A stretch of DNA of 40,915 nt. It comes from Bdellovibrionales bacterium. GTDB lineage: Bacteria; Bdellovibrionota; Bdellovibrionia; Bdellovibrionales; UBA1609. Below, in pieces: positions 1,524-12,328 of this stretch (positions are counted from its first letter, which is position 1; every line of letters begins with the position of its first letter). The notes beneath the pieces were generated by a model. That model saw only the letters and a list, made by a program, of their open reading frames with translations. It was not told the origin of the DNA and searched no databases. The stretch spans positions 1-40,915 of the forward strand of contig JAPPLY010000004.1 of assembly GCA_028819305.1 (NCBI GenBank). Reading direction: 5' to 3'. A program made the translations under genes and the position numbers.

Positions 1524-2753
1524 ATGATACAAACAATCGAAAAAGAGCAGGTCCAAGAAAAAGAACAAATACAAGAAACAGAACAGATACCAGAAAATAA
1601 AGATTTACAAAAAAATCTCTTATCTGTATTTTCTCATGTTTTTAAAAATTTTCAGGAACTAACACAGGTAGATACTTCTCAATCGAATATTCTTCAGCAT
1701 CCTGAAGAAAAATCTCGTATTGATAGCATGAAAGATAAATTAAAAAATCTATCTCCACCTCAATATTATCCTCGTTTGGCTAGTGAGATTTTTGGCATGG
1801 GACCCATTACAGATTTGATACAAAATAAAAATATTTCAGAAATTATCATCAATGGAGGTCGTGATATCTTTTATGAGAAAAAAGGAAAATTACATATTTT
1901 AGAAGATCATTTTTTATCCGATTTAACTTTCCGTAATTTTACTCATCGTGTTCTGGATGAAATAAAACAGACTCTCAGTTTAAAACAACCCTTTACTGAT
2001 GGAAACTGGAGAGGATGGCGGATCCATATAGCCATGAGACCTGTAGTGAATGTGGATTTTCATTTGAGTTTTAGAAGGCACCCTGAAGACCCATGGACAC
2101 TTCCCAAACTGAAAGATCAAGGATGGGCACCGGAGAAAGCTCTTCATTTAATCGAAAAACTTCTTTCTCAAAGAAGTAATATTTTAATTGTGGGACCTAC
2201 GAGTTCAGGAAAAACATCTGTACTCAATGCCTGTCTTAAATGTTTGCCCCATAATGAAAGAGTTATTATCATTGAAGATAGCAGTGAGCTATTATTACCC
2301 AACTCTGTTAGTACGAAGCTTCTTACTCGCTCCAATAGCAACAGCCCGGATACTCTTTTAGATATTGATCAAAGTGAATTAGTTCGACAAAGTCTCCGTA
2401 TGCGGCCAGACAGAGTTGTTATGGGGGAGGCGAGGGGACCAGAAGCCAAGGATTTACTAATGGCTTTAGCCACTGGACATAGCGGCAGTCTAGGGACTTT
2501 GCATGCTAAAGATCATAAACAAGCTCTTTGGCGTTTGGAAATGTTAGTGCAAATGGGAGCTCCTTCGTGGGATACAGACACCATTAGACAGATGATTGTT
2601 CTTAGTATTACCCATTTAATGGTACTCGGTCGTTATATGGGAGAGAGAAAGCTTATGGGAATTTATAAGCTTTCTGGAGTGGAACAGACAGGTTTTTTAT
2701 TTGAGGCCCTGTACGCTCATTTATCCAACCCCGATTCTTGCTTTGTTAATTGA
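1524..2753 (+). CDS. CpaF/TadA-type secretion ATPase (VirB11 family)
   Basis: This 409-residue ATPase belongs to the type II/IV secretion superfamily, whose members power pilus assembly or protein export as hexamers at the inner membrane. The Walker A motif GPTSSGKTS is at about 224-232, an Asp-box (IIIEDSSEL) at about 248-256, a Walker B region (RVVMGEARGPEA) at about 297-308, and a His-box (TGHSGSLGTLHA) at about 317-328. These are the CpaF hallmarks. The first ~28 residues are a Gln/Glu-rich repeat. The start is ATG with GGAG nine bases upstream. No other tad/cpa or pilus genes are nearby, so its partner machine must lie elsewhere or it works alone. The 3' end overlaps the convergent aspS by 37 bases. 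Confidence 0.85.
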   Translation: MIQTIEKEQVQEKEQIQETEQIPENKDLQKNLLSVFSHVFKNFQELTQVDTSQSNILQHPEEKSRIDSMKDKLKNLSPPQYYPRLASEIFGMGPITDLIQNKNISEIIINGGRDIFYEKKGKLHILEDHFLSDLTFRNFTHRVLDEIKQTLSLKQPFTDGNWRGWRIHIAMRPVVNVDFHLSFRRHPEDPWTLPKLKDQGWAPEKALHLIEKLLSQRSNILIVGPTSSGKTSVLNACLKCLPHNERVIIIEDSSELLLPNSVSTKLLTRSNSNSPDTLLDIDQSELVRQSLRMRPDRVVMGEARGPEAKDLLMALATGHSGSLGTLHAKDHKQALWRLEMLVQMGAPSWDTDTIRQMIVLSITHLMVLGRYMGERKLMGIYKLSGVEQTGFLFEALYAHLSNPDSCFVN

Positions 2754-4522
2754 ATCCCTAGCTCCAAGAGCTGATCCCTTTGAGGGGGAGAAGGAGCAGA
2801 GGACATGAGACATAAACCACTTGTGGTTTTGGGGAAAGCAATCACATCTCGAATATTGTCTGTGTCACTTAAAAGCATCAGCAACCTATCTAAACCCCAA
2901 GCTATTCCACCATGAGGGGGAGTGCCATAGCGTAGAGCTTCCAGAAAAAAACCAAATTTTTCCTGACATTCTTCGGGGCTTAAAGAAAGAGCTTTAAACA
3001 AAGCGGCTTGTGTTTGGCTATCATGGATACGTACGCTACCCCCCGCTAGTTCTTGACCATTACAAACCAGGTCGTAAGCTTTCGCTCTTATAGTTTGTTG
3101 GTTCCACTTTTGGTCTAATAACAAGGGGAGGTCTTCGTCCATAGGAGCTGTAAAGGGATGGTGACAGGCTTTCCATCTCTGCTGGCGGCTATCATATTCC
3201 AGAAGGGGAAACTCTCTTATCCATACAAACTGATCTTGTTTGTCTTGGATCAGCCCTTCTTCTTTTCCTAATTGACGAATCAAAAAATGAGCTGCCGGAT
3301 AAATTTCTTGTGCTAAACCAGCTAGCATAAATACCATGTTCTGATCCTTTCCCCCTGCTGCTTTAAATAGTTTTTGCAAAAATTCTTTTTGAATCCATTT
3401 GTCTGCCGGGGACTTTAGTGTTCTATCTGGTAAGGATTTGATCCAAAGCAGACCCCCTAAGCCTTGTTTTTGAACTTCCGCTGTGAGTTTTTTAATACGG
3501 CTGTTACTAAAATTTTCTTGTTTAGAAAGAACCAGGGTGTTAATAACCCCTCCTCTTTTTAAAGTTTGTTCAAATACAGGGAAACCACAACCAGATACAT
3601 CCTTACTTATATCTTTTAACTTTAAGGGGTTTCTTAAGTCTGGGCGGTCCGTTCCGTACTCATCCATAGCTTTTTTGTAAGAAAGGGTGGGAATAGCTTC
3701 TATAGTTTGATTTTTAAATTTTTTCCAGAGGGCTTTTAACAAAGCTGTATTTACTTGTAAAATATCTTCTTCATTAACAAAACTCATTTCTATGTCAATT
3801 TGTGTGAACTCGGGTTGTCGGTCCGAGCGTAAATCTTCGTCTCGAAAACAGCGGGCTAATTGAAAGTAACGATCTGTTCCCGCTATCATTAAGAGTTGCT
3901 TGAGCGTTTGAGGGCTTTGCACTAAAGCATAAAAAGATCCTTTGTGAATACGGGAGGGGACCAGATAATCCCTCGCCCCCTCCGGTGTGGTTTTATATAA
4001 AATAGGGGTGTTCACCTCTATAAAGTTCATTTGACTTAGCTCTTTACGTACTTCTTGATAAACCTCATGGGCTAACTGCATGTTTTTTTGTAAACGCTGT
4101 GATCTTAAATCTAAGTAGCGATATTTTAAACCCAGGTCTTCAGACACATTTTGGCTATCTACTAAGAAAGGAGGAGTGTCTGCACGGGAAAGTAATTCAC
4201 AACGGTGTGCTTTTACCTCTACTTCTCCTGTCGGATTTTTATCACTCACCATATCTTTAGGCCGTGCACATACTTTTCCCTGAATAGCTATTACACTTTC
4301 TAAACCAAATGAAGAAACCTTTTTTAATTCCTCTTTTTTAGGGTCTAAAATCACTTGCGTATAGCCTGTTTTATCCTTCAGGTCTATGAATAGGACCCCT
4401 CCATGATCTCTTATTTTTTTTATCCATCCCATTAGCACCACTTCTATATGCACATGGGAGGCTCTTAATTCGCCACAATAATGGCTCCGTTTTAATTCTT
4501 TAATAAAAGGTTTTTGTTTCAT
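2717..4522 (-). CDS. aspS: Aspartate-tRNA ligase
   Basis: This 601-residue class II synthetase charges tRNA-Asp (or tRNA-Asp/Asn if non-discriminating) in the cytoplasm. An N-terminal OB-fold anticodon-binding domain (about 1-110) starts with the usual RSHYCGELR. Class II motif 2 is visible in FRDEDLRSDRQPEFTQIDIE, a GAD insertion domain fills the middle, and motif 3 is GIAWGLDRLLML near the C-terminus. Length and order match the bacterial type. The start is ATG 4522 with AGGAA upstream. It runs divergently from the sigma-factor gene and overlaps the CpaF-type gene tail to tail. Confidence 0.95.
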   Translation of the reverse strand: MKQKPFIKELKRSHYCGELRASHVHIEVVLMGWIKKIRDHGGVLFIDLKDKTGYTQVILDPKKEELKKVSSFGLESVIAIQGKVCARPKDMVSDKNPTGEVEVKAHRCELLSRADTPPFLVDSQNVSEDLGLKYRYLDLRSQRLQKNMQLAHEVYQEVRKELSQMNFIEVNTPILYKTTPEGARDYLVPSRIHKGSFYALVQSPQTLKQLLMIAGTDRYFQLARCFRDEDLRSDRQPEFTQIDIEMSFVNEEDILQVNTALLKALWKKFKNQTIEAIPTLSYKKAMDEYGTDRPDLRNPLKLKDISKDVSGCGFPVFEQTLKRGGVINTLVLSKQENFSNSRIKKLTAEVQKQGLGGLLWIKSLPDRTLKSPADKWIQKEFLQKLFKAAGGKDQNMVFMLAGLAQEIYPAAHFLIRQLGKEEGLIQDKQDQFVWIREFPLLEYDSRQQRWKACHHPFTAPMDEDLPLLLDQKWNQQTIRAKAYDLVCNGQELAGGSVRIHDSQTQAALFKALSLSPEECQEKFGFFLEALRYGTPPHGGIAWGLDRLLMLLSDTDNIRDVIAFPKTTSGLCLMSSAPSPPQRDQLLELGIQLTKQESGLDK

Positions 4523-6940: not shown

Positions 6941-8020
6941 TTAAAGAACTATAATCAGACCTTGGAGTAAAACCACTGTAGCCATAAAAGCATACCTAAC
7001 AAAGATGGGAATTTCCCATCTTCTTATTTTTCCTTTTACTAATAAATAAGTACAGAAGATGTAAAGCAGTGTAGGAATAAAACTGAGGAGGTCATTATAT
7101 AAGATTAAATAAACAAGGGATAAAAGAGCCAGGAGAAGACATAAACTAGAGAGGAAAAAACCCAAAGGTAAGCTTAAGTCACCTGTGGCAAACAAATTCA
7201 GTTTAGCTCTCTTTTTTCTATCTCGATCGGCATACACCATACTAAAGAATACATGAAAGGCCGTAGCTAAAAAATTAAAATGCACTGTGGAAAAGGCTAA
7301 AGTAAAAAATAAATTGTGAAAAGAATAGGAAATAGAAACAAAAGCAGATAGAAAAACAGGTAGTATAAAAATAAGACAATTTAAAAACCATAAAGGAAAC
7401 CCTAATGTGTAGGCAAAGAGAGTAGGGTTTAGCTCTTTTTTTAAAAACCACCTATGAACCTTTACTTTTTTAGATAAGAATAAAGTGAAAACAGAGGGAT
7501 TAACTAAAATAAAGTGATGAGTGTAAGGAGCTATTTTAAGATCGGCCAGGGAGTTACCAGCATAGTCAAAGTTTTTTTCTCCGTATTTTTCAACAAGAAA
7601 GAGAGCTTTTTTCTTTCCTACTAGGTTTTTCCCTAATGTAGATCCCCAAGCAGAATCAAAAAAGCCAGTCCTTTTTTTTATTTTGTCAGCGTAGGTTTGT
7701 GTGGAGCCTGTGCATAAAACCAACTCCCGCCCTCGCTCTTTTTCCTCTTTTAGGTAATTTATAAAATCTTTTGATAAAGGCAGGGCTTCTAAAGAAAAAC
7801 AGGCTCGTTTTTCCAGTTCCAACTTAAAATATCCAGCCTTTTTTATTTTTATTTTTCTAATTATGATTTTTATCAACTCAATAGGGTGCCATACTAAAAC
7901 AGATAAAAAGGATTCCCACGGAAGATCCGTTTTTATAAGGGTGCCATCCAGATCTACTACTAAAGGCTTGCTTATTGGTGGTTTTTCTTCTTTTTTTGCT
8001 ATTGCTTCTGCTTCATTCAA
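6941..8020 (-). CDS. HAD-like phosphatase fused to UbiA-like membrane domain
   Basis: This 359-residue protein joins two domains. Residues about 19-175 are HAD-like: motif I DLDGTL (23-28), Thr104 in LCTGS as motif II, and GNSLADLK (155-162) as motif IV. Residues about 195-359 contain six to seven hydrophobic segments, with ADRDRKKRAKL and FATGDLSLPLG where UbiA prenyltransferases have their first Asp-rich loop. The fusion is a known family (HAD plus UbiA, related to decaprenyl-phosphate phosphoribosyltransferase-like proteins). The usual NDxxD part of the first loop reads HVFFS here, so only the last Asp is kept. Prenyl-transfer activity is therefore uncertain. It may act on an isoprenoid lipid at the inner membrane, which is an inference. 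Confidence 0.7.
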   Translation of the reverse strand: MNEAEAIAKKEEKPPISKPLVVDLDGTLIKTDLPWESFLSVLVWHPIELIKIIIRKIKIKKAGYFKLELEKRACFSLEALPLSKDFINYLKEEKERGRELVLCTGSTQTYADKIKKRTGFFDSAWGSTLGKNLVGKKKALFLVEKYGEKNFDYAGNSLADLKIAPYTHHFILVNPSVFTLFLSKKVKVHRWFLKKELNPTLFAYTLGFPLWFLNCLIFILPVFLSAFVSISYSFHNLFFTLAFSTVHFNFLATAFHVFFSMVYADRDRKKRAKLNLFATGDLSLPLGFFLSSLCLLLALLSLVYLILYNDLLSFIPTLLYIFCTYLLVKGKIRRWEIPIFVRYAFMATVVLLQGLIIVL

Positions 8021-8283
8021 TGTGTCTTCTCCTTAAAACAGTTTTTACTTGAATATTCCTGTTTTTATAAGCTTTCGGCAAGAGAAAACAGGTACGAGAT
8101 TTTTAGAATAGGCTTATCCAAACCTCGGTTTTTCCATGACATCTTATGCTAAAAATCCTCCAATTAACAAGACTTAAGGCGTATTTATAAGCATATACTA
8201 TATTTCTAAGTATTTAATTTATCATTTAATTTTATAATTTTTTACAAAGGATTTTTTTTAAATGGTATCAGGAGAGATACTCA

Positions 8284-9132
8284 GTGGATTTTTTACATCA
8301 AGATATATCATCAAGATTAGACGAAAAGAAGATAGCTAAAACTAGAGCAAATGATCTTAGTGGAAAAGAATGGTTAAAAAATTCTGTATCTATATGGAGT
8401 GATTTATCTAAGGATAATGAAGAAAGAAAGATGAATCATCCAGCTATATTTCCTTGGAAATTAGCCTATAAAATTATAGAAACATTTACTGATCACACTA
8501 GAAAAAATATATTAGATCCCTTTTTAGGGTCAGGTTCCACTTTAATTGCTTGTCATAAACTTAATAAAAACGGTATAGGTTTTGATATTAATAAGGAGTA
8601 TATATCCCTTTCAAAAAAACGTATAAAAGATATATCTGCATCAAGTAAAAATAACCCACATATTAAATTGATAAAAAGTACGGCTCTTAATATTAGAAGA
8701 TACCTACCCGATGATACGATTGATTTATGTTTTACCAGTCCTCCTTATTGGGATATATTAAGTCAAAAAAGAACAGTGGATGGAAAGAGTAAAAAAGAAT
8801 ATTCATTTTCGAGAGAAAATATAGGGTTAGTTGCTTCTTATGAAGAATATTTATTAATAATGAAAAATATATTTCGTGAGATATTCAAAGTGATGAAACC
8901 GAACTCCTATTGTATAATAAATGTAATGGACTTGAGGAAAAAGAATGTTTTTTACCCGCTACATATGAATATTACAGATGCTTTAACATCAATAGGTTAT
9001 ATTTTAGATGATATAATTATATGGGATAGGAAACAAGATTATAACAATTTACGTCCATTGGGATATCCTTATGTTTTTAGAGTGAATAAAATTCATGAAT
9101 TTTTACTTATATTTAAAAAATGTCAGAATTAA
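8284..9132 (+). CDS. DNA methyltransferase (SPPY type, probably N4-cytosine)
   Basis: This 282-residue AdoMet-dependent DNA amino-methyltransferase starts at GTG 8284, with AGGAG ten bases upstream. Motif X-like HPAIFPWKLAYKII is at about 52-65, motif I DPFLGSGST at 78-86 (AdoMet site), motif II GFDINKEYI at 99-107, and catalytic motif IV TSPPYW at 151-156. The SPPY form is typical of N4-cytosine enzymes, though some N6-adenine enzymes have it, so the base modified is a likely call only. The X-I-IV order leaves the target-recognition part in the C-terminal half. It is the first gene of a tight cassette: its end overlaps the next gene by 13 bases. Codon use is visibly more AT-rich than in the flanking genes, which suggests horizontal transfer. 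Confidence 0.9.
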   Translation: MDFLHQDISSRLDEKKIAKTRANDLSGKEWLKNSVSIWSDLSKDNEERKMNHPAIFPWKLAYKIIETFTDHTRKNILDPFLGSGSTLIACHKLNKNGIGFDINKEYISLSKKRIKDISASSKNNPHIKLIKSTALNIRRYLPDDTIDLCFTSPPYWDILSQKRTVDGKSKKEYSFSRENIGLVASYEEYLLIMKNIFREIFKVMKPNSYCIINVMDLRKKNVFYPLHMNITDALTSIGYILDDIIIWDRKQDYNNLRPLGYPYVFRVNKIHEFLLIFKKCQN

Positions 9133-10007
9133 ACCAACCTGAGCTTGCTTACTTTCTTGGACTCTGTATTACCAGGGGCTATTTTTCTGATTCTAAAATA
9201 ATTGTAAATTTTAGCTATAAAAAGCGCTCGTTCAATTTACCTCCAAATTGTTTATCTGCTAATCTATCAAAAAAAGATCGTGAGTACACCATTGATGGAA
9301 TAAGAGTCACTGAATTATTAAAAGGATATTTACAAACGGAAATTATAACAAATCGAGATGACCAAAGATATTCTATGACTGTAGTAATCCCACAAGGAAG
9401 TATGGTATCACAAACTTTAAACAGTATTCTTGGCCCTCTGGAGTCTTTTAGTTATAAGACTACAAATATCCCTGATGTTATTTGGAACTCTTCAATTGAT
9501 ATACAAAAATATTTTATAAGAGGAGTAGCTGATTCTTGTTCTATTCCTACTTATGGAGATAGAGATCAGAATAATCAGACAAGAATTTGTATAGACATTC
9601 CATTTGAAAACTGGAATCTACCTGTAAGTATATGTAAATTACTACAAGAAAAATTAAGTATTCCGGTAGCTAATATATTATGGGGACATCCAAACCTAAG
9701 AACTCCAAGTCAACCTGAATCTCGTAGTTGGTCTAAAGAACACAGAGTTAGACTATTTTCAACAGAGTTTGCACAAATAGGTTTTGGCTTTGAGTTCAAA
9801 CAACAAATTCTAGAATATTTTATTTCCTTTGAAAATGATAAAAGAAAATCGTCAATATTTTGTTGGCCAAATAAAAAATACAATAATAGAAAACGAGAAA
9901 AACATCTTGACGAAAGTAGCGATAAAATACCTTTAAAAGCTAGAAAACATGTTTGTAACTTCCGGGAAGTGTGTTTGTCTATGGGGTGTGAACAAAAAGA
10001 GAGATGA
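9120..10007 (+). CDS. LAGLIDADG-fold-like protein lacking catalytic acids
   Basis: This 295-residue protein shows two degenerate LAGLIDADG-type helices: YFLGLCITRGYF at about 11-22 and YFIRGVADSCSIP at about 131-143. In active homing endonucleases an Asp or Glu fills the eighth motif position. Here these positions align with Arg19 and Cys140, so DNA cleavage by this protein is unlikely. The C-terminal part (about 246-292) has Cys248, His277, Cys279, Cys285 and Cys290, a possible metal site. It overlaps the methyltransferase gene by 13 bases and the nuclease gene by 4 (ATGA), so the three are probably translated together. I infer a DNA-recognition role for the neighbouring nuclease. No exact family name can be given from sequence alone. 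Confidence 0.6.
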   Translation: MSELNQPELAYFLGLCITRGYFSDSKIIVNFSYKKRSFNLPPNCLSANLSKKDREYTIDGIRVTELLKGYLQTEIITNRDDQRYSMTVVIPQGSMVSQTLNSILGPLESFSYKTTNIPDVIWNSSIDIQKYFIRGVADSCSIPTYGDRDQNNQTRICIDIPFENWNLPVSICKLLQEKLSIPVANILWGHPNLRTPSQPESRSWSKEHRVRLFSTEFAQIGFGFEFKQQILEYFISFENDKRKSSIFCWPNKKYNNRKREKHLDESSDKIPLKARKHVCNFREVCLSMGCEQKER

Positions 10008-10507
10008 AAGAATCTACATTATATTTGCCAGTTAAAAACTGGATAAATAATTATCTAAAAAGAAATTTGAAAACTCAGAAGGTTAAAACCTATATAGGAG
10101 CTGACGAATTTATTAGTAAAATTTTAATTAGGGAAAATTTGTATGATAAAATTATAAATTCTCACTATTTCAATATAAAAATTGATGTATTTTCTGTTGT
10201 TATTAAAGATGATAAAGCAGAGTTAGTTCTTATAGAGTGTAAGAGTACTCGATTAGGTTTAATTCATCTTAGTCAATTAATAGGGTATTCACGTATCATA
10301 AATCCTCTATGTTCAATTTTATTAAGTCCGGAGGAAATCACTACTGGATTAAAAAATTTCTTGAATAACCAAGGCCATAGTTTATTGAATTATGGAAATA
10401 ATAGAAAAATAGTTATTGCAAAGTGGATAGCGAGTAGAGGTGAAATAGACATTATAAATTGTTTGCCTAAAGGATATTTATCTCCTTCAAAAATGTCAAT
10501 TTGGTGA
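10004..10507 (+). CDS. Small PD-(D/E)XK nuclease, probable restriction subunit
   Basis: This 167-residue protein has the core of the PD-(D/E)XK nuclease fold: Asp61 (KIDVFSVV), then Glu78-x-Lys80 in ELVLIECKS, then Gln91 in QLIGYSRI, which fits the Gln-x3-Tyr element after the core in many such enzymes. The N-terminal ESTLYLPVKNWI resembles the leading helix of related restriction-like proteins. At 167 residues there is little room for a separate DNA-recognition domain, which fits a partner providing specificity. Its ATG overlaps the stop of the LAGLIDADG-like gene (ATGA at 10004-10007). The end overlaps a convergent small gene by 12 bases. Cleavage of DNA unprotected by the neighbouring methyltransferase is an inference from context. 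Confidence 0.75.
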   Translation: MKESTLYLPVKNWINNYLKRNLKTQKVKTYIGADEFISKILIRENLYDKIINSHYFNIKIDVFSVVIKDDKAELVLIECKSTRLGLIHLSQLIGYSRIINPLCSILLSPEEITTGLKNFLNNQGHSLLNYGNNRKIVIAKWIASRGEIDIINCLPKGYLSPSKMSIW

Positions 10508-10702
10508 TATATCTGGAGAATGCAGTAATGGTTTATGTTGCTTATTAGAAGATTTGTTTTTAAGAGCGAATTGCAAAAATTCATCAGCATTTGTAAATGT
10601 GTCAAAACATTCCGCATGAACAGGATAAGGTTTAAATTCTGGAGCTAATAAGCTATATTCTTCGGATTCGACAATATTTTTACAAACTATGCATTTTTTC
10701 AT
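10496..10702 (-). CDS. Small zinc-finger-like protein
   Basis: This 68-residue protein carries Cys4-x2-Cys7 (CIVC) and His29-x2-Cys32 (HAEC), a spacing that fits a small treble-clef or LIM-like zinc site. The rest is polar and the C-terminal tail looks disordered. The ATG at 10702 is preceded by AAGAGG nine bases upstream, which supports real translation. It runs convergently into the nuclease gene with a 12-base overlap. It could be a cargo or control gene of the restriction-like cassette, or an unrelated host gene at its edge. I do not recognise the family. Confidence 0.5.
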   Translation of the reverse strand: MKKCIVCKNIVESEEYSLLAPEFKPYPVHAECFDTFTNADEFLQFALKNKSSNKQHKPLLHSPDISPN

Positions 10703-10791
10703 TTACTTACCTCTTTATAAGGAGTTTAATACCAACAAAGAATTTGAGTGTAAAGATTTGAGTATGGAAACCGATCTATAATGCGCTGTAT

Positions 10792-10822
10792 AAAATCTCC
10801 TATAGACTGAGAGGATAGGAGA
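10792..10822 (-). terminator. Probable terminator of tolB
   Basis: TCTCCTAT (10796-10803) and ATAGGAGA (10815-10822) form a perfect eight-base stem with an 11-base loop. Read on the minus strand it is followed by TTTTA. It lies about 90 bases past the tolB stop, at the edge of the restriction-like cassette. The T run is short, so strength is uncertain. Confidence 0.5.
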
Positions 10823-10912
10823 AGCTCACCTACTATTTCCCCTTTTCATGGTTGTTGGGGTAGTATATGTCCTTAAAAGAATATGATTCATAGTGACGGA
10901 AGGGGTTTATTT

Positions 10913-12328
10913 TTACTTTAGCAAAGGCGACCACTTTGGGCTTTTGTAATTATGTATATCAGTAGTAATGCGTGTTGTACGGAAGTTCAGTAAGTTCATA
11001 ATATATAATTGATTTTGACCGGTACGGTTGCTGGTAAAAACAATATGCCGACCATCCGGCGCAAAAGAAGGAGATTCATTGTTAGCCCACTTGCCGTTTG
11101 GTTTTTGAAAACTGGTCAGCCTACGTAGGTTAGAACCATCTGGACTCATAATAAAAATGTCAAAGCGTCCATTTGAAAAACCGGAAAATACCACCTCTTT
11201 TCCATCTGGTGAGTAGTCAGGTGTGGAGTTATAGGAACCATGCCAGGTGACAGGGCGTATGTTTTTTCCGTTCATATCCATAGAGTAAATCATTATTTTA
11301 CCTCCACGATCAGAAGAAAATAAAATGTTTTTCCCTTTAGGATGAGCTACCGGTTCTACATTAATGGATCTGTTTGGCCCAAAAGTAATAGCTTTGATAG
11401 AGCCATCCTTAAGTGACATCTTGGCGATGTCCATATAACCCCTTCCTAAAAAGAGAGAGAGCAAAATATGTTTCCCTCCTGGTAGAAAGTCCGATCCTAA
11501 ATGGGCTCCCTCTTTTTTGGAAATAATCTGACGGGTCTTAGTAGAACGATCATATAAGAGAAGAGAGGCATTTCTTCTTTTTTTACTTTTTCGATATAAA
11601 AAAGAGGTGTAGGCTATGTAGCGGCCATCATTGGACCAACTGGGTGATAACACAGTGGAGTTATGATAAGAAATTTGTTTTTTATTTTTTCCGTTCCAGT
11701 TCATAATAAAGAGTTCTTTTTTACTACCAGTCATAGTTCGTACAGCTACAATTTTTGTTAGAAAGATCCCTGGCTTTTTCGTCAGTGCGGCAATAATGTC
11801 ATTACATATTTTATGAGATAATTTTTCCACCAGTTTCTGGTCGGCTATATATTTTTTTTGAAACACCTTTCGTTTTAAAGGAACATGGTAAAGATAAAGA
11901 TGGAGGTGTATTGTGTTTTCTTCAAAGGAGTATCTGCTCAGAACCAGGTAATCTGCTTTTAAAAGCTGCCAGTTTTTCCATATAAAACCGTCGGGATCTT
12001 CGGGGTAAGGTTCTAATTTTTTCTCCCCAGGTTTTTCCAGGAAAGCTTCTTGTTCAATCAGTTTAAAATAACTGGAAGAAGATAAGTTATCTTTTATGAT
12101 GGTAAAAATCGTAGCTCCTGCTTCTAAAGCAGGTTGAGAAGAGGGGCCAGATAGCACTAAGGGTTGAATAGCCATTTGGCTCTCTCTTATATAAGCTTTT
12201 CCTACATCAATGGAAACATAGGCTTTTGTAAAGACGGGGCAGACAATGACAAAAATGGTAATCCACACAGAAAAAACATTTTGCAAATATCTTGTTTTAT
12301 ATTTTAATAGGTTAAACTTTAATATCAT
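10913..12328 (-). CDS. tolB: TolB-like periplasmic beta-propeller protein
   Basis: This 471-residue exported protein belongs to the Tol-Pal system, which links the inner and outer membranes and supports envelope constriction at division. A hydrophobic segment near residues 18-36 fits a signal peptide after a basic N-terminus. The N-terminal TolB domain (about 40-160) precedes five PD40 propeller blades with SP-W/Y/F-DG motifs: SPSWSNDGRYIAYTS, GSDFLPGGKHILLS, EPVAHPKGKNILFSS, TPDYSPDGKEVVFSG and SPSFAPDGRHIVFTS. Length is typical or slightly long. It lies downstream of a TonB/TolA-like gene on the same strand, 366 bases away. No pal, tolQ or tolR gene is adjacent. Confidence 0.92.
   Translation of the reverse strand: MILKFNLLKYKTRYLQNVFSVWITIFVIVCPVFTKAYVSIDVGKAYIRESQMAIQPLVLSGPSSQPALEAGATIFTIIKDNLSSSSYFKLIEQEAFLEKPGEKKLEPYPEDPDGFIWKNWQLLKADYLVLSRYSFEENTIHLHLYLYHVPLKRKVFQKKYIADQKLVEKLSHKICNDIIAALTKKPGIFLTKIVAVRTMTGSKKELFIMNWNGKNKKQISYHNSTVLSPSWSNDGRYIAYTSFLYRKSKKRRNASLLLYDRSTKTRQIISKKEGAHLGSDFLPGGKHILLSLFLGRGYMDIAKMSLKDGSIKAITFGPNRSINVEPVAHPKGKNILFSSDRGGKIMIYSMDMNGKNIRPVTWHGSYNSTPDYSPDGKEVVFSGFSNGRFDIFIMSPDGSNLRRLTSFQKPNGKWANNESPSFAPDGRHIVFTSNRTGQNQLYIMNLLNFRTTRITTDIHNYKSPKWSPLLK

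Follow-up and report, generated by a model that had tools for sequence, protein, structure and literature searches.

We analyzed a 40,915-nucleotide stretch of DNA from a Bdellovibrionales bacterium (contig JAPPLY010000004.1; referred to throughout as the window) and focus here on an open reading frame (ORF) of 295 aa at 9120..10007 on the forward strand, which the original prediction had described as a LAGLIDADG-like protein and whose coordinates we confirmed. Rather than a homing endonuclease in decay, we find this protein to be the product of the middle gene of a cassette in which a methyltransferase, the LAGLIDADG-like protein and a nuclease are encoded side by side. The locus contains the following features:

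8021..10912, no strand: A+T-rich inserted segment carrying the cassette, flanked at 6941-8020 by a gene of HAD type and at 10913-12328 by one taken to be of TolB type
8270..8275, forward: likely ribosome-binding site (candidate AGGAGA, read from the sequence) before the GTG start at 8284
8284..9132, forward: DNA methyltransferase of the N6_N4_Mtase family, 282 aa, with a TSPPYW motif (PF01555, E 8e-35; PADLOC MTase_II, E 1.8e-47)
9120..10007, forward: 295-aa LAGLIDADG-like protein that lacks the catalytic acids (homologue alignment, AlphaFold2, Foldseek, VIA-align)
9150..9179, forward: first LAGLIDADG motif, YFLGLCITRG, residues 11-20, with Arg19 in place of the acid (sequence, alignment, model)
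9513..9542, forward: second LAGLIDADG motif, FIRGVADSCS, residues 132-141, with Cys140 in place of the acid and Asp138 invariant
9681..9743, forward: beta-hairpin and insert of the C half, residues 188-208, with the invariant residues His190, Asn192, Arg194, Glu207 and His208
9861..9989, forward: C-terminal Cys/His region (Cys248, His262, His277, Cys279, Cys285, Cys290), a candidate metal site in a 19-member subgroup
10004..10507, forward: small PD-(D/E)XK nuclease, 167 aa (AlphaFold2, VIA-align, conservation of Asp61/Glu78/Lys80)
10184..10243, forward: predicted nuclease catalytic core, Asp61 ... Glu78-x-Lys80
10496..10702, reverse: small convergent ORF, 68 aa, with a CxxC...H..C pattern, either a linked passenger or a possible extra component in this phylum

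The cassette and its relatives

The three cassette genes overlap, with the end of the methyltransferase gene running 13 bases into the LAGLIDADG-like gene and the latter sharing four bases (ATGA) with the start of the nuclease ORF, and because of these overlaps the genes may well form one transcript. We take the TSPPYW motif to indicate that the methyltransferase is probably of the N4-cytosine type. The cassette has been inserted at a place where congeners have nothing: the HAD-type gene and the flanking gene that we take to be of TolB type are adjacent in two of them, the matched ends being about 25 and 91 bases apart, and the GC content is 0.28-0.31 for counting windows within the insert versus 0.32-0.41 for those in the flanks. 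The LAGLIDADG-like protein is encoded once in this genome, by a free-standing gene inside the methyltransferase cassette. No Rfam match at gathering score was found within the window, and an intron-encoded enzyme was rejected on that ground.

Relatives were gathered from plasmid and phage records, viral contigs and species genomes. The genome search, from which the best 80 of 158 relatives were retained, used two patterns in the C half that cover residues 183-191 and 204-212, so that conservation in these segments is biased upwards. A viral scan with the window protein alone returned no relatives, and one with the alignment found some. The resulting working set of 88 proteins comprised the window protein, 80 genome loci, four viral contigs and three plasmid or phage records. 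Dropped before counting were L002 (a contig stretch shared with L033), L022 (a second Lactiplantibacillus plasmid with an identical protein accession) and L025-L027 (contigs shared with L031, L030 and L032), and L029 was set apart as an acid-bearing homing endonuclease. For the nucleases the count is 82, which omits L045 (over-long ORF), L099 (cut at a contig end) and the near copies L089, L103 and L106. As a comparison set of acid-bearing phage homing endonucleases we used 47 of 80 fetched loci (more than 3500 bases, ORF of 181-329 aa).

Cassettes were found on plasmids, phages and viral contigs and across many phyla, including Thermoplasmatota; one of them (L033) comes from a genome of the same order as the window genome. 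Isolates with a cassette include Anaerotignum neopropionicum DSM 3847, Alkaliflexus imshenetskii DSM 15055 and Winogradskyella epiphytica CECT 7945. Their prevalence is low, with 2/368 genomes in the phylum of the window genome, 3/391 in a class sample around G368 and 1/395 in a phylum sample around G370, each count including the genome that the sample was drawn around, which was picked for having the protein.

A LAGLIDADG saddle without catalytic acids

The window protein matched nothing in Pfam, NCBIfam or PADLOC, and a sequence search of the PDB with it gave chance matches only. Pfam matches among 82 members of the family were weak, 13 touching PF05204 Hom_end (best E 0.0038) and five touching LAGLIDADG_3 (best E 0.048). 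The AlphaFold2 model, built from 79 alignment rows, has a mean predicted local distance difference test score (pLDDT) of 87.3 and a predicted template-modelling score (pTM) of 0.90, and consists of two alpha-beta-beta-alpha-beta-beta-alpha halves, at about residues 1-246, with paired motif helices. VIA-align matched it to I-Tsp061I (2dch; Z 14.4, 181 aligned residues, root-mean-square deviation 3.0, model residues 2..243), to PI-PfuI (Z 14.3) and to WhiA (Z 13.2 and 11.7), and every one of the 45 PDB chains that Foldseek returned at E <= 0.001 was a LAGLIDADG protein or WhiA. A profile-profile comparison with the 47 phage homing endonucleases was in weak agreement, with a probability of 73 (E 3e-5), against 0.5 for a nuclease control. 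Chance similarity to LAGLIDADG proteins was considered and rejected. We thus have good confidence, on the strength of the model, that the protein is a single-chain LAGLIDADG saddle of the two-fold kind that the original prediction had put forward.

The two motifs proposed there, YFLGLCITRG and FIRGVADSCS, likewise stand, with Arg19 and Cys140 at the positions of the acids: motif 1 retains glycines 14 and 20, and residues 19 and 140 are the last of the predicted helices. Across the 88 proteins, position 19 is occupied by N (61), R (20), K (4) or H (3) and position 140 by T (80), A (4), C (2) or S (2), so the catalytic acid that a homing endonuclease carries at the helix end is present in 0/88 for motif 1 and 0/88 for motif 2, compared with D at both positions in 47/47 of the phage set, with the caveat that an acid occurs at position 21, two residues past motif 1, in 70/88 (Tyr in the window protein). 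Because neither position holds an acid in any member, the loss is a fixed trait of the sampled family and is not peculiar to the window gene. Neither of the outcomes named beforehand as refuting the original prediction came about, since the model contains the paired helices and none of the 88 homologues sampled has an acid at either site. The protein has in common with I-Tsp061I, PI-PfuI and I-DmoI the two-fold saddle and the two LAGLIDADG helices, and differs from them in that both acids are replaced and that its gene is tied to methyltransferase and nuclease genes.

The nuclease and the methyltransferases

The downstream ORF is predicted to be a PD-(D/E)XK nuclease by fold, with its D...E-x-K core intact. 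Its AlphaFold2 model (pLDDT 93.9, pTM 0.89) aligned with the nuclease domain of PaqCI (Z 9.2), BsaWI (Z 8.7), AF1548 (Z 8.5), the Pyrococcus repair endonuclease NucS/EndoMS (2vld, Z 8.2) and the small subunit of BspD6I (2p14, Z 6.8); these Z values are moderate, but the best-scoring entries are nucleases of restriction and repair. Foldseek returned AF1548 (E 1.8e-4) and 2vld (E 5.1e-4). Asp61, Glu78 and Lys80 are conserved in 79/82 nucleases, and the three without the full core are the small nucleases that stand beside a LAGLIDADG-nuclease fusion (L046, L059 and L060). In these three of 87 loci a further nuclease copy, which retains the core as read from its sequence, is fused to the LAGLIDADG-like protein in a chain of 544 aa; fusion and following small nuclease together lie at 5755-7864 in L046, 5974-8083 in L059 and 2711-4820 in L060. 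The fusion also has a zinc-finger-like insert, which in L059 matches zf-tcix at E 2e-4, below the cut-off of that family.

A nuclease gene lies directly downstream in 87/88 loci, which bears on the notion of a decayed homing endonuclease sitting by chance in a restriction-modification cassette. The homing-endonuclease fold and the existence of acid-bearing phage relatives such as L029 would fit such an origin, but 88 proteins over many phyla keep an open frame, a narrow range of non-acid replacements and the same partner, and a decaying gene would be neither so conserved nor so linked; we therefore regard decay as highly improbable.

Homology places a methyltransferase within 3.5 kb in 88/88 loci. 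The types differ: an EcoRI-like adenine enzyme with a C5 cytosine enzyme in 36, an Eco57I-like adenine enzyme with an SPPY enzyme in 27 and a C5 with an Eco57I-like enzyme in four, in addition to 19 loci with SPPY alone by the homology test and two with C5 alone, both near a contig edge. The 19 SPPY-alone loci include proteins of 611-617 aa, of which the one that was scanned (L041) has a D12 adenine enzyme fused to the SPPY domain, and the others are, judging from their length, probably D12-SPPY fusions too. True single-methyltransferase cassettes are those of the window, L034, L035 and L043, while L033, L056 and L071 are situated at the edges of contigs. Whenever two methyltransferases occur, they appear from their motifs and families to be one adenine and one cytosine enzyme, the SPPYW motif being one that we presume to mark a cytosine enzyme. 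On the tree of the LAGLIDADG-like proteins, which has long branches and an unsure deep order, at least 9 switches of pair type are required, compared with a shuffled mean of 41, and L038 or L040 carry a different pair from L041 or L044 despite about 79% identity of their LAGLIDADG-like and nuclease proteins. The constant part of the cassette is the pair of LAGLIDADG-like protein and nuclease, whose distances are strongly correlated (r = 0.92 over 41 non-redundant cassettes, with 0/2000 permutations as high); the methyltransferases are exchangeable and have been swapped repeatedly.

In the 2.0 Mb window genome (G000), methyltransferase families are matched 18 times by PF01555, 10 times by PF02086 and nine times by PF02384, some of these matches overlapping or split. 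An adenine methyltransferase encoded elsewhere in the genome could complete the single-methyltransferase cassette of the window.

Several cassettes carry additional genes. In L028 an extra protein (2868-3944) with a NOV_C (NO VEIN) domain (E 5.5e-9) separates the C5 methyltransferase from the LAGLIDADG-like gene, and ORFs of similar size occur in L069, L086, L093 and L094, the extra proteins being 341-358 aa long. Two viral contigs have a 149-residue ORF after the nuclease gene (L030, 5199-5648; L031, 6374-6823), whose L030 copy has no Pfam match and, by eye, begins like the extra protein of L028. Within the phylum sample, the small convergent ORF of the window is confined to 2/368 genomes, exactly those with the cassette, and adjoins it in both (in L033 at about 2369-2503, reverse strand); tblastn did not find it in the other fetched cassettes.

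A probable recognition subunit for a separate nuclease

We consider it likely that the locus encodes a restriction-modification cassette of a Type II-like kind whose restriction enzyme is split: the dead LAGLIDADG protein would read an asymmetric site and the PD-(D/E)XK nuclease would cut. A methyltransferase gene stands beside a nuclease gene, and the nuclease has a known restriction-enzyme fold and core, as in Type II systems. The LAGLIDADG-like protein would retain the saddle with which single-chain homing endonucleases bind DNA, its own active sites having been lost, and would hold or activate the small nuclease; the methyltransferases would mark the same site on host DNA, and the cassette as a whole may serve in defence. 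The single-chain saddle of homing endonucleases can read an asymmetric site, and two unlike methyltransferases are what such a site needs, which points to an asymmetric target. Together with the precedent of large and small subunits in Type IIT enzymes, these considerations lead us to propose a role as recognition subunit for the dead LAGLIDADG protein, and the tie to a nuclease and to DNA methyltransferases suits the repurposed recognition module of the original prediction.

BtsI, BsrDI and BspD6I combine a larger recognition subunit and a small catalytic subunit at an asymmetric site, with two methyltransferases that are separate or fused (PMC2909958; PMC4081073). Two methyltransferases are described as the norm for Type IIT systems, in some of which the larger subunit recognizes the site and the small one cuts the second strand (PMC4081073), and BtsIB has PD-EXK residues of its own (P57, D58, E72) and nicks alone (PMC2909958). 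The two-methyltransferase feature is found in most relatives of the window cassette, which itself has one, and the small subunit of BspD6I resembles the window nuclease. The large subunit here would instead be a LAGLIDADG fold without catalytic acids. By residue and by fold, no second catalytic site was found in the large protein, a PD-(D/E)XK domain being present only in the three fusions; for this reason the cassette, which would work like BtsI, is not filed as Type IIT. PaqCI, NucS/EndoMS and AF1548 share the PD-(D/E)XK fold with the small nuclease, but PaqCI has its nuclease and recognition domains in one chain, and the term LAGLIDADG occurs 0 times in the PaqCI paper.

One alternative is that a new active site in the LAGLIDADG-like protein, around His190, Asn192, Glu207 and His208, cuts one strand and the nuclease the other, as in Type IIT enzymes. 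His190, Asn192, Arg194, Glu207 and His208 are invariant in 82/82 alignment rows (residues 190, 207 and 208 in 88/88), and in the fused cassettes, with one intact PD-(D/E)XK site, a second site would be useful. However, the conservation of residues 188-208 is partly ascertainment because the retrieval patterns lie there, conserved polar hairpin residues also look like base contacts, and the segment is not known to fit any nuclease motif, no search aimed at one having been made. We consider such a site quite improbable; the invariant residues could make base contacts, form a docking surface or, less likely, constitute a new active site.

Further along the chain, Cys248, Cys285 and Cys290 occur together in 19/88 proteins, and the remaining 69 have none of the three. 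His277 is present in 86/88, including all 19 of the Cys subgroup, and His262 in 18 of those 19. This pattern would suit a metal site formed by the three cysteines and His277 in the subgroup, although the confidence of the model is low around residue 250. The zinc cluster first suggested is partly supported, for this subgroup; in its five-residue form, which also drew on Cys279, it was rejected, as Cys279 is unique to the window protein among the 88.

Alternatively, the nuclease could by itself make up the whole restriction enzyme, specificity included, with the LAGLIDADG-like protein as a controller of expression, like the C proteins or WhiA. Controllers are common in restriction-modification operons. 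WhiA (DUF199), like the window protein, has a degenerate LAGLIDADG fold without catalytic residues (structural match Z 13.2), and it became a transcription factor (PMC3781837). Unlike the window protein, WhiA binds through a C-terminal helix-turn-helix, and its description there includes neither a nuclease nor a methyltransferase partner (PMC3781837). The window ORF ends at residue 295, with a tail (247-295) that contains one helix of at least four residues and has no Pfam match, and no helix-turn-helix family is among the Pfam families listed (25 of 29) for 82 members. Moreover, the LAGLIDADG-nuclease fusion of L046, L059 and L060 suits an enzyme subunit better than a regulator, and the presence of two different methyltransferases points to an asymmetric site, one that a homodimer of the nuclease alone would not read. 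A controller therefore seems unlikely to us.

Several points weigh against a dead LAGLIDADG protein that directs a separate nuclease. The window cassette has one methyltransferase, as do L034, L035 and L043, which leaves the second strand unexplained, and L043 is without an adjoining nuclease. In the fused cassettes Glu, Lys and Gln are gone from the core of the extra small nuclease, so that each complex would have a single intact site. A PD-(D/E)XK nuclease of about 160 aa can have a specificity of its own. As for the correlation between LAGLIDADG-like and nuclease distances, tight linkage by itself yields correlated distances. Finally, WhiA is a degenerate LAGLIDADG domain that left base reading to another domain (PMC3781837).

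In the open literature, to which the searches were largely confined, no title or abstract listed describes a restriction-modification system with a LAGLIDADG domain, and a large 2014 review of Type II enzymes describes mostly PD-(D/E)XK, HNH and GIY-YIG groups together with phospholipase D, the word LAGLIDADG being absent from it (PMC4081073). We are inclined to think that the cassettes represent the first restriction-system family in which a catalytically dead LAGLIDADG domain reads the sequence and delivers a separate, non-specific PD-(D/E)XK subunit. Few bacterial restriction systems would be expected to have such a design, a dead homing-enzyme fold guiding a separate nuclease. If this is correct, the homing-endonuclease fold would have been borrowed for recognition alone, adding a recognition scaffold to those of restriction systems, and the family would provide a natural precedent for meganuclease-guided nucleases, akin to engineered fusions on a meganuclease scaffold, as well as another case, next to WhiA, in which a dead LAGLIDADG protein was domesticated. 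The swapping of methyltransferases around one recognition-nuclease pair predicts a single asymmetric site, A being the base marked in one strand and C the base marked in the other, and methyltransferases of several unrelated kinds would have been plugged in around a constant recognition-plus-nuclease pair.
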